From: SAR116 cluster bacterium AG-321-K23
GTDB lineage: Bacteria > Pseudomonadota > Alphaproteobacteria > Puniceispirillales > Marisalimonadaceae
Assembly: GCA_003284565.1 (NCBI GenBank)
Contig: QBXO01000020.1
Location: 1 to 35,415 of the forward strand
Direction of reading: 5' to 3'
Length of the DNA: 35,415 nucleotides
Positions 9,643 through 12,992 of the stretch are shown here, piece after piece. The notes under the pieces were generated by a model, which worked only from the letters and a program-made list of their open reading frames with translations, was not told where the DNA came from and did no database searches. How positions within the stretch are numbered: position 1 is the first letter of the stretch; the number at the start of each line of letters is the position of its first letter. Both the position numbers and the translations under genes were made by a program.

Positions 9643-11391
9643 CTAGAAGAAGGATTTCTTATATAAGTTATTTATTTCGTCTTTATAATAAGTTGCAATT
9701 ACGTGTCGTTTCATTTTAAGTGTTGGTGTTAATTGGCCATTATCCGTTTTAAAAACATTATTCGAATGAATAAATTTTCTAATTTTTTTTTGCTGAGATA
9801 AATCTTTATTTACGTTATTCAAAATATTTTGAAGATTTTCTTTTAAATTATTCTGGTTATCACTTAGTAGGGTTTCATTTGGAATAATTATGGCAATTAA
9901 AAATGGTCTGTTATGACCATAAATCATTACTTGTTCAATCTCATCATATGATAGTAAAAGATTTTCAATTGGAACAGGAGCTATATTTTCACCACCTGAA
10001 TTTACAATCATTTCGTTCGCTCTTCCGGAAATTTTCAAGTATCCATCATCATCGATTGATCCAAGATCTCCAGTGTGAAGCCAACCATTTACCAAAACTT
10101 TATCCGTATTTGTTTTATCTTTCCAATATCCCTTCATTAGAGAACTTCCTTTTACGAGAATTTCATTCTCATTAGAAATTTTAACCTGAAGACCCTTAAT
10201 AACAACGCCAACGGTATCTAATTTAATATTATTTATTGGGTTACATGATATGAGTGGAGAACATTCAGTTTGACCGTATCCTTGCAGAATATTAACTCCA
10301 AGAGATTGAAAAAACAAACCAACTTGTTCATTCAAAGCAGCTCCTCCAGAAATAAATGCTTGTAAATTTCCACCAAAATTTCTCTGAAATTTTTTTCTTA
10401 CTAATTTATCCAAAATTATATTTTGGACTTCTTCAAAAAAACTTAATTTTATTTTTTTATATTTTTTTGTCCCTAATGTTATTGTTTTTTCAAATAATTT
10501 TTGAGAAAATTTACTTTTGTTTAATAGTTGGTTATTTATTTTCTTATATAAAACTTCATAAAGTCTTGGTACTGCGGTCATTAATGTTGGTTTAATACTT
10601 AATAAATCATTTACTATTTGGTCACGATTTTCATTAAAATAAATTTCTGCACCTATAAAAATTGGTAAGAAGAAACCCGCAGTATGTTCATAAGCATGTG
10701 ATAAAGGAATTATAGATAAAAATTTATGTTCTTTTATTTTAATTTCAGAAACTAATTCATTTGCTCCAAGTATATTAGATATAATTGATTTATGAGTTAA
10801 CATTACCCCTTTAGGTTTATTACTAGTTCCAGATGTATAAATAATTGAAACCACATCATTTTCGTCAATGTTAGAAACAAAAAGTTCTATTATGTTTGAT
10901 TTTACATGACTTTTTGAACCCAGATTTAATAATTGATTCAATGTATAAAAACCAATGTTAATTTTTTTAAATTTTGATGTACTTGTGTCATCGATACAAA
11001 TTACATGTTCAATTTTATCTAAACTTGGTAATATTTGTAAAATTAGTGGTAAAAGTTTTTCATTAACAAAAACTATTTTGGCTTCTGAATGAGATAAAAG
11101 GTAAGAAATTTCTTCTTCATTGCTTGTTGTATAGCCAGGAACAGTTATTGCTCCTAAAGATATTGTAGCTAAATCTACAACACACCACTTATAACTATTG
11201 TCAGCAATAATAGATACTTTGTCCTTTTTTTTTATACCTATTTCATACAAGGCTGCACTTATATCTAAAACTAGCTCTTTAGTTTTTTTCCAAGAAAGGC
11301 TCTCCCAGTTGCTATGTTTTTTAAAACCAAATAATGTTTTATTCTCATACAATTCAGAATTTTTAAAGAAAATCTGTGGTAAATTATTCAT
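9643..11391 (-). CDS. Long-chain acyl-CoA synthetase (AMP-forming)
   Basis: It activates a fatty acid with ATP and CoA through an acyl-AMP intermediate, feeding beta-oxidation or lipid synthesis. It is 582 aa, close to the FadD15/FACS group. The P-loop-like motif YTSGTSNKPKG is at 185-195. The adenine-binding GYGQTE is at 371-376 and the hinge motif GWLHTGD at 436-442, before SGRANEMIVNSGGENIAPVPIE, where the C-terminal domain begins. No signal peptide is seen, so it is cytoplasmic or peripheral on the inner membrane. It probably forms a two-gene unit with the permease 21 bp downstream. The chain-length preference cannot be read from sequence. Confidence 0.92.
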   Translation of the reverse strand: MNNLPQIFFKNSELYENKTLFGFKKHSNWESLSWKKTKELVLDISAALYEIGIKKKDKVSIIADNSYKWCVVDLATISLGAITVPGYTTSNEEEISYLLSHSEAKIVFVNEKLLPLILQILPSLDKIEHVICIDDTSTSKFKKINIGFYTLNQLLNLGSKSHVKSNIIELFVSNIDENDVVSIIYTSGTSNKPKGVMLTHKSIISNILGANELVSEIKIKEHKFLSIIPLSHAYEHTAGFFLPIFIGAEIYFNENRDQIVNDLLSIKPTLMTAVPRLYEVLYKKINNQLLNKSKFSQKLFEKTITLGTKKYKKIKLSFFEEVQNIILDKLVRKKFQRNFGGNLQAFISGGAALNEQVGLFFQSLGVNILQGYGQTECSPLISCNPINNIKLDTVGVVIKGLQVKISNENEILVKGSSLMKGYWKDKTNTDKVLVNGWLHTGDLGSIDDDGYLKISGRANEMIVNSGGENIAPVPIENLLLSYDEIEQVMIYGHNRPFLIAIIIPNETLLSDNQNNLKENLQNILNNVNKDLSQQKKIRKFIHSNNVFKTDNGQLTPTLKMKRHVIATYYKDEINNLYKKSFF

Positions 11392-11510
11392 AAATTAAAC
11401 CATTTAAATAATAAAATTATACTGCCACAAATCACTGTAAATTAACATTTTTATTTTAATATTTGTTATTTTTTTTTATCATATAGTGAATTGATTGTAA
11501 TATTAAATTA

Positions 11511-11516
11511 AAGGAG
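11511..11516 (+). promoter_or_regulatory. Strong Shine-Dalgarno site (AAGGAG) with no standard start codon after it
   Basis: AAGGAG is a near-perfect anti-16S complement. The next in-frame ATG of the hydrolase is at 11585, 68 bases away and far too distant to be served by it. At normal spacing (8 bases) the codon is ATA at 11525, followed by ATT. See the extension entry that follows. Confidence 0.65.
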
Positions 11517-11524
11517 TAATCAAA

Positions 11525-11584
11525 ATAATTTTAAAATATATTACACCCATTGTACTACTTATCACTTTAACTTTTTTAATATCT
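11525..11584 (+). other. Probable N-terminal membrane anchor of the hydrolase, started at a non-AUG codon
   Basis: The frame of the alpha/beta hydrolase stays open upstream of its first ATG back to a stop at 11504-11506. The 20 codons before the ATG read IILKYITPIVLLITLTFLIS, which has the composition of a signal anchor. No ATG, GTG, TTG or CTG occurs in that frame, but AAGGAG lies 8 bases before the first codon (ATA). Either the gene uses ATA or ATT as its start (ATT is known for infC), or an ATG was lost by a point change or a sequencing error. Confidence 0.5.
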
Positions 11585-12493
11585 ATGAACTCAAATCAGA
11601 TAAATCTTTCTAGCGATTTTAATCCAAATTCTATTGGTTCTAATATAAATGAATATTTAAAAAAAACAGAAGAACATTTATTAGATATTAAAGAAGGTGT
11701 AGCAAAAAAAATAATATGGGCTAACGAAATAAATATTAAAACACCAATTTCAATAGTTTACATCCATGGCTTTACTGCATCTTCAGAAGAAGTTCGCCCT
11801 CTTCCTGACAAAATTGCTAGTGATTTAAATGCCAATCTTTTCTTCACAAGATTAACAGGGCACGGAAGAAATCCAAGCGCAATGGAACTATGCTCAATTC
11901 CAAATTGGATTAGAGACCTACATGAAGCAATAGAAATTGGATCAAGGATTGGTGAAAAAGTTATTTTACTTTCTTCTTCAACTGGTGGAACAATAAGTGT
12001 AACATCTGCTCTAGATAAAAAGCTTTCCCAAAAAATTTTAGGATACATATTTATATCTCCTAATTTTGGAATAAATAATAAATTTGCTGGCATGATTTCG
12101 TGGCCATTTTCAGAGTATTGGTTAAAATTAATTCTTGGTAAGAAAATGAAGCACAAACCTAGAAATGACCTTAATAAAAAATATTGGACAATGTCATATC
12201 CTACAAATGCTCTCATACCAATGGCTAAGTTAGTAAGAGAAGTAAATAAAAAAGATTACAGCACAGTGAAAAAGCCTGCACTTTTTTATTTTTCAATGGA
12301 AGATAAAGTTGTAAATCCTCACAAAATTAAAGAGTTTATTACTAAGTGGGGAGGAAATAGTACAACGAAAATTGTTAAACTTTCAAATAAGGATGATAAA
12401 TTTTCACATGTATTAGCTGGCGACATTATTTCTCCAAACCAAACTGATCATGCAAAAAAAACAATGGTAAATTGGATTAAAAATTTAAAATAA
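11585..12493 (+). CDS. Alpha/beta hydrolase (serine esterase/lipase-like)
   Basis: The protein is 302 aa from the first ATG, longer if the upstream anchor is real. The oxyanion strand is YIHGFTASSEE (about 59-69) and the family's LTGHGR is at 90-95. The nucleophile elbow is SSSTGG, with Ser132 as the likely nucleophile. The usual first Gly of GxSxG is replaced by Ser, giving SxSxG. Asp240 (SMEDKVVNP) and His275 (FSHVLAGD) complete a plausible catalytic triad. It resembles carboxylesterases and monoacylglycerol lipase-like proteins; the substrate is unknown. It is divergent from the acyl-CoA synthetase, so a lipid-related job is possible but unproven. The 16-bp gap to the convergent NTF2-like gene holds no clear terminator. 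Confidence 0.82.
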   Translation: MNSNQINLSSDFNPNSIGSNINEYLKKTEEHLLDIKEGVAKKIIWANEINIKTPISIVYIHGFTASSEEVRPLPDKIASDLNANLFFTRLTGHGRNPSAMELCSIPNWIRDLHEAIEIGSRIGEKVILLSSSTGGTISVTSALDKKLSQKILGYIFISPNFGINNKFAGMISWPFSEYWLKLILGKKMKHKPRNDLNKKYWTMSYPTNALIPMAKLVREVNKKDYSTVKKPALFYFSMEDKVVNPHKIKEFITKWGGNSTTKIVKLSNKDDKFSHVLAGDIISPNQTDHAKKTMVNWIKNLK

Positions 12494-12509
12494 ATCTGAA
12501 TTAAAACAC

Positions 12510-12992
12510 TTATTTAATATATGGAATGGATGAGTGATGTAGATTGATTAACAAATTGTTTTCATTATCTTTTACATAACCAAAAGTATATTCAACTTTT
12601 ACTTCATCGGCATCTTCAAAACTTTGAAAAAAGTAATTTCCCATAGATAAAGCTGTCTCTTTAGAAAAAATTATTTTTCTTTCACCAAAACGTATTTTTT
12701 TCCATGGTCTTAGCGCAAAACCTTTATCTTCTGAAATGGAACCACCTATGAAATAAGACAATGCATCATCATAAGTGAAACGAAATTGCTTTTCTGAAGC
12801 CAATGTGGGTTTGAATAAGACATCAGTTATATCAAAAGCATAAAATTGTTTAACAAAAAGGCTTGCTTTAGTTTTATAATCTTTGTTTTTGGTATATAAA
12901 TTTCCGATTTCTATTACGTTTTGAGCCCACAACTCTTGGACCTTGTTAATTTCAAATTCTGATGTGTTAATTTTTTCTACAATAGTTTTCAT
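12510..12992 (-). CDS. NTF2-like/SnoaL-type small protein
   Basis: A 160-residue soluble protein without signal peptide. The N-terminal helix VQELWAQNVIEIGNLYTKNKD is followed by a substrate-pocket region and strands ending VKVEYTFGYVKDNENNLLINLHHSSIPY. That layout, including the final curved sheet and the HHSS motif, is what I expect of the NTF2-like fold (CaMKII-association or SnoaL type). Family members are enzymes such as isomerases or simple binding domains; no catalytic role can be assigned. It is transcribed alone from a candidate promoter at 13083-13110. Alternative: a member of an uncharacterised family that only shares this fold. Confidence 0.6.
   Translation of the reverse strand: MKTIVEKINTSEFEINKVQELWAQNVIEIGNLYTKNKDYKTKASLFVKQFYAFDITDVLFKPTLASEKQFRFTYDDALSYFIGGSISEDKGFALRPWKKIRFGERKIIFSKETALSMGNYFFQSFEDADEVKVEYTFGYVKDNENNLLINLHHSSIPYIK

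Follow-up and report, generated by a model that had tools for sequence, protein, structure and literature searches.

The hydrolase gene and its start region

The window (the whole stretch of 35,415 nucleotides analysed here) is contig 20 of a 1.81 Mb SAR116 genome given as 69% complete. It holds a gene for an alpha/beta hydrolase resembling monoacylglycerol lipases, the region in which translation of that gene would begin, and a divergent neighbour (Table 1).

Table 1. Features of the hydrolase locus in the window
Feature	Position	Strand	Evidence or remark
Divergent AMP-binding, acyl-CoA ligase-like gene	9643..11391	-	AMP-binding, 8.8e-70; conserved neighbour
In-frame stop TAA	11504..11506	+	Upstream bound for possible start sites
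Shine-Dalgarno AAGGAG	11511..11516	+	8 nt before ATA; GGAG in 18/18 genomes of the window's clade
Proposed start codon ATA (AUA)	11525..11527	+	AUH in 34/34 family genomes read; parallel in infC
Hydrophobic N-terminal anchor of 20 codons (IILKYITPIVLLITLTFLIS)	11525..11584	+	Best 15-residue Kyte-Doolittle mean 2.38; predicted helix, residues 2-23
Whole alpha/beta hydrolase gene, monoacylglycerol-lipase-like	11525..12493	+	322 codons plus stop
In-frame ATG at the anchor end, without Shine-Dalgarno; candidate second start, for a soluble form	11585..11587	+	ATG in 33/34, GTG in 1/34 family genomes
Ser152, putative nucleophile in S-S-S-T-G	11978..11980	+	Invariant in alignment A1
Asp260, putative catalytic acid	12302..12304	+	Invariant in alignment A1
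His295, putative catalytic base	12407..12409	+	Invariant in alignment A1

The hydrolase product matches Hydrolase_4 (PF12146, Pfam) at 45.1 bits, the curated cut-off being 27 (E = 9.7e-12), and among solved structures it is nearest to bacterial monoacylglycerol lipases: PDB entry 4lhe by sequence similarity (1.2e-10), and 3rm3 by a Foldseek comparison with the predicted structure (4.1e-16, about 20% identity). The predicted structure has a mean pLDDT of 89.3, and its residues 2-23 form one helix. With the monoacylglycerol lipase of Bacillus sp. H257 (3rm3/3rli) the SAR116 protein shares the fold, a detectable sequence similarity and the Ser/Asp/His residues, while it differs in an extra hydrophobic helix at the N-terminus and in an overall identity of about 20%. 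From the fold, Ser152, Asp260 and His295, all invariant among the 23 sequences of alignment A1, make up the putative catalytic triad. A lysine stands before the core of the N-terminal helix and no positive charge just after it; by the positive-inside rule, this suggests a helix with its N-terminus inside and a catalytic domain outside the cytoplasm, the enzyme itself being presumably located at the membrane. The frame of the hydrolase body is broken in two assemblies, L056 (G002) and L025 (G037), which may be real or an assembly error.

A match to the AMP-binding gene flanks the hydrolase in 32 of the 36 other family loci that were searched; the remaining four (L011, L018, L022 and L025), which have no such match, stop short at contig ends. 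None of the 18 loci of family f3 shows it; their flanking sequence is only a few hundred bases long. Such a neighbour does no more than hint at monoacylglycerol hydrolysis by the SAR116 enzyme. On the other side of the hydrolase lies an ORF of 160 codons (12510-12992, minus strand), which has no Pfam match and is matched next to the hydrolase in 17 related loci at 77-84% identity.

The first-pass annotation had proposed either that the hydrolase carries a membrane anchor translated from a rare start codon, which keeps expression low, or that a start codon has been lost and a soluble form remains. Its description of the site is accurate throughout. The proposed AUA stands exactly 8 nt after the last G of the Shine-Dalgarno and in frame with the ATG at 11585, from which it is separated by 20 stop-free codons that encode the hydrophobic stretch. 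Reading the in-frame codons of the window from the upstream stop, we find no ATG, GTG, TTG or CTG before the ATG at 11585, and no Shine-Dalgarno before that ATG itself. Within a single genome, however, a Shine-Dalgarno followed by ATA is statistically unremarkable: across 403 ORFs in 435,415 bases sampled from this genome, 9 of 149 ATA codons follow a Shine-Dalgarno-like word, a frequency similar to that of AAA (19 of 289) and TTT (9 of 197). What lifts the pattern above chance is its conservation in other genomes. A search of positions 11300-12600 for known RNA elements in the leader gave one match, far below the cut-off (E = 0.51) and on the opposite strand.

Conservation of the start site and neutral simulations

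A hydrolase match was found in 35 of the 40 genus genomes searched, in 45 of 58 family genomes (the weak ones are probably other hydrolases) and, at 1e-30, in 55 of 136 genomes of the order. The start region was readable in 32 genomes of the genus (the window's own included) and in two belonging to a sister genus, 34 of the family in all; L018, L022 and L025 were left out of the start-site count, as their contigs end first. The orthologous proteins are homologous up to the AUA site, and do not, as the first-pass annotation had allowed, begin to resemble one another only at 11585. At the place where homology begins, all 34 have AUA, AUU or AUC (hereafter AUH): ATA in 22, ATT in eight and ATC in four. 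The alignment for an ATG that the annotation had suggested hence turned up AUG in none of these assemblies. For the family we therefore reject a sequencing error at the start codon, and a misread or misassembled ATG has a practically negligible probability, given that AUH recurs in 34 of 34 separate assemblies, many of them from named single cells.

Of the 34 genomes, 31 keep the anchor frame open. The exceptions, L005 and L006 with an in-frame stop each and L020 with a frameshift, all belong to the window's 18-genome clade; in all three the hydrolase body remains open. Over the best 15 residues, mean hydropathy is at least 2.3 in 33 genomes and 1.97 in L020. Between the upstream stop and the AUH, 21 of the 34 genomes have no in-frame ATG, GTG, TTG or CTG, and in L053 and L057 an in-frame stop directly precedes the AUH. 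The remaining 13 have a canonical start farther upstream (TTG in nine, GTG in L023 and L028, CTG in L024, both GTG and ATG in L058), before none of which the test used found a Shine-Dalgarno; the TTG six codons upstream of the AUH in the 61%-identity clade could serve as an alternative start. As AUH also spells isoleucine, the constant lack of AUG would fit an internal isoleucine as well, against which the nearby upstream stops argue where they are present.

The Shine-Dalgarno itself is regular in the window's clade: the spacing from GGAG to AUH is 8 nt in 17 genomes and 9 nt in L017. Outside the clade it is variable, and weakest in L023. In family f3 (L085-L102), read by eye, the anchored protein starts at the corresponding place, with TTG or GTG in 13 of the 18 loci and ATG in five; the anchor is therefore probably older than the AUH codon.

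Neutral change was simulated along the tree under HKY with no rate variation between sites, with branch lengths taken from third codon positions of the hydrolase body and the observed open anchors as starting point. The simulations used 33 of the 34 genomes, L056 being omitted for its broken hydrolase frame. Over the family, 3 of 2000 runs had as many open frames as observed (30 of 33), and none of the 2000 attained the observed mean hydrophobicity, AUH in all 33 genomes, or the three features jointly. Another set of runs gave 8, 0 and 0 of 2000 for open frame, hydrophobicity and AUH. For the 15 genomes outside the window's clade the corresponding runs were 1 for the open frame, 0 for hydrophobicity and 3 for AUH, again of 2000. 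Halving the branch lengths over the family raised the counts to 135, 61 and 14 of 2000, respectively, with the joint outcome still at 0. Within the window's clade (18 genomes, own root), the open frame was reached in 745, the hydrophobicity in 299 and AUH throughout in 78 of 2000 runs, so that the anchor in this clade alone is indistinguishable from drift.

The Shine-Dalgarno in the same clade behaves otherwise. GGAG was retained in all 18 genomes in 2 of 100,000 neutral runs, AUH alone in 4334, and the two together in 0 of 100,000. At a distance of 68 nt, this Shine-Dalgarno is out of reach of the ATG at 11585, which suggests that translation of something begins near 11525.

infC and other candidate AUH starts

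We examined infC as the gene likeliest to use AUA if the lineage uses it at all. An IF3 match is present in 27 of the 40 genus genomes, many of which are incomplete, and infC begins at ATA in all 27 loci (L103-L129); GGAG lies exactly 8 nt before it in the 26 leaders that are visible, L103 beginning at a contig edge. Among the 45 genomes of the order that are at least 90% complete, genus members counted, 44 have an IF3 match, and in the 24 loci read outside the genus (L180-L203) ATA again stands at the homology start behind GGAG. In six of these 24 an in-frame ATG or GTG also occurs at some point before the AUA, which makes the control not wholly clean. In total, infC has AUA in 51 of the 51 loci read. 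The lipase-like gene is laid out like infC, an AUH gene of a known type in the same genome.

A 435,415-base sample of the genome (403 ORFs) was scanned for a Shine-Dalgarno plus ATH preceding the first canonical start by five codons or more. The looser list has 25 ORFs and the strict one three candidates: the window's hydrolase, an ELM1-like gene and a cyclo-ligase-like stretch. The last of these (L143:12015-12581, plus strand), which we take to resemble 5-formyltetrahydrofolate cyclo-ligase, has no canonical start in its first 78 codons and is perhaps frameshifted; as an AUH start it was rejected, its open frame extending well upstream.

The ELM1-like gene (L142:2593-3552, minus strand; PF06258, 3.2e-55) has a match in 32 of the 40 genus genomes; 30 loci were read, G039 and G004 being without a locus. 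By eye, the start site is ATA in all 18 of the nearer loci (L150-L167, own genome included, 67-100% identity), with an ATG farther upstream in L164, a TTG farther upstream in L166, a TTG just downstream in L165, and a Shine-Dalgarno that varies. Twelve more distant genus loci have TTG in 11 and ATA in one (L177), and TTG stands at the corresponding place in both sister-genus genomes read (all by eye). From this distribution, a second gene seems to have switched between TTG and AUA.

AUA-type starts are known from a few cases elsewhere. AUA leaves a mismatch at its third base when read by the initiator tRNA, and IF3 discriminates against this mismatch, as is known from infC and pcnB. In E. coli, infC, which encodes IF3, has a start of the AUU/AUA type and is autoregulated by IF3; by analogy, the same autoregulation may be assumed in the SAR116 lineage. 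Binns and Masters are said to have found in 2002 that the AUU start of E. coli pcnB limits poly(A) polymerase, and we know of no membrane anchor between the AUH and the conserved AUG of that gene. Published work describes this IF3 discrimination against AUA-type starts for infC and pcnB (PMC9410913) and, for S. aureus, conserved non-canonical starts at infC (AUA), ccpN (AUA) and cvfC1 (AUU); relative to AUG, reporters with AUA and AUU reached about 10% in poor medium, and ccpN up to 30% in rich medium (PMC13009471).

Set against these cases, the SAR116 lipase-like gene shares with infC of its own genome and genus the GGAG, the spacer of 8 nt and an AUA start kept across the lineage. The two differ in that infC controls its own discriminator whereas the lipase is without obvious feedback, and in that the third base of the lipase start varies between A, U and C whereas that of infC is constant. 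With E. coli pcnB it has in common that both are genes other than infC with an AUH start, pcnB being kept low, although the proteins are unrelated. S. aureus ccpN and cvfC1 resemble it in a non-canonical start and a Shine-Dalgarno conserved across species; they belong to a different phylum and encode different proteins, and the passages of that study consulted here make no mention of a second in-frame start that would change location.

Proposed start choice at the hydrolase gene

The best account of these observations, and one that we consider probable, is that the conserved AUH start is truly used and the hydrolase translated from the AUA at 11525. This is supported because AUH codon, Shine-Dalgarno and hydrophobic frame are kept in the family and because infC has the same AUA layout; of the two proposals in the first-pass annotation, the rare start codon is hence the one that fits best. 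Few ribosomes would start at the AUA, 8 nt behind a full Shine-Dalgarno, as IF3 would discriminate against the third-base mismatch with which the initiator tRNA reads it, and little anchored enzyme would be made. The 20 extra residues would form an N-terminal membrane helix, N-inside, that places the catalytic domain outside the cytoplasm, and the AUG at 11585 would probably also start translation, without a Shine-Dalgarno, to give a soluble cytoplasmic form. What is observed directly is that Shine-Dalgarno, AUH codon, hydrophobic frame and downstream NTG are conserved and that infC has a matching AUA layout; initiation at the AUA, its weakness and IF3 sensitivity, the topology and the second form are inferences.

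The codon at the anchor end deserves attention of its own. The single GTG among the 34 family genomes is in L058, and the codon lies at position 18, 20, 21 or 22 depending on lineage; even the frame-shifted L020 has an ATG. For the family, not one of 20,000 neutral runs kept ATG, GTG or TTG at one codon in every leaf; for the window's clade, 155 of 20,000 did. Selection for methionine or for a hydrophobic residue could also explain the retention seen. A second start at the anchor end, which may yield a soluble form beside the anchored one, is likely rather than shown; it would explain how three genomes were able to lose the anchor and yet keep the gene.

That the AUA is the sole start that matters, and the anchor-end ATG merely a methionine residue, is a sub-case of the best explanation to which we give an appreciable chance, if well short of an even one. 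It would suit the lack of a Shine-Dalgarno at 11585 and the GTG of L058, valine being equally at home in a hydrophobic position. Such a lack is however ordinary in this genome, since a strong Shine-Dalgarno precedes only 65 of 288 first-ATG candidates in a genome sample (a strict test, applied to first ATGs, which need not be the true starts). Nor would a mere residue readily account for an NTG at codons 18-22 in 34 of 34 genomes though its exact place differs by lineage, or for the anchor-end ATG kept by the three genomes with a broken anchor.

The other proposal of the first-pass annotation, that the start codon was lost, that only a soluble form from 11585 is made and that the anchor is a decaying relic, we regard as unlikely. 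Three of the 18 genomes in the window's clade do have a broken anchor frame, an ATG or GTG is available at the anchor end in every family genome read, and the anchor of this clade, taken alone, is not separable from drift. Had the loss occurred once at the root of the family, on the other hand, the frame would not have stayed open and hydrophobic throughout it (the joint outcome of 0 in 2000), and a Shine-Dalgarno so far ahead of the ATG would not have been retained (2 in 100,000), which counts against a lost start in the window's own clade also. The proposal thus fits three of the 34 genomes at most. Very unlikely, too, is a regulatory leader peptide begun by the Shine-Dalgarno and AUA, with the hydrolase made by re-initiation at 11585: the AUA frame does end a few codons before the ATG in L005, L006 and L020, but in the other 31 genomes the anchor is stop-free and runs on toward the hydrolase, and in family f3 the anchored protein stands behind TTG, GTG or ATG.

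With translation from the AUA as the preferred reading, the anchored lipase would, by analogy, be made at a low level, perhaps following IF3 and ribosome supply. As a tentative and rather doubtful extension, we propose that SAR116 keeps a small set of AUA-type genes like infC (the lipase and the ELM1-like gene) that track IF3 and ribosome supply, and that the second AUG of the lipase makes the choice of start a choice of location, anchored outside or soluble inside.

Few bacterial genes with conserved AUA, AUU or AUC starts have been described, among those in print being infC, pcnB, ccpN and cvfC1, and the openly licensed literature that we searched yielded nothing on this gene or on AUH starts in SAR116. 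To these the hydrolase adds a monoacylglycerol-lipase-like enzyme kept on AUH across a bacterial family, with a third such gene, the ELM1-like one, pointed to beside infC. For annotation, a gene finder that admits only ATG, GTG and TTG starts the protein at 11585, as the ORF list does, and loses the hydrophobic anchor, which turns a probably anchored enzyme into a cytoplasmic one. For the biology of the lineage, the lipase, taken together with infC, makes it possible to examine if IF3 regulates genes other than its own.
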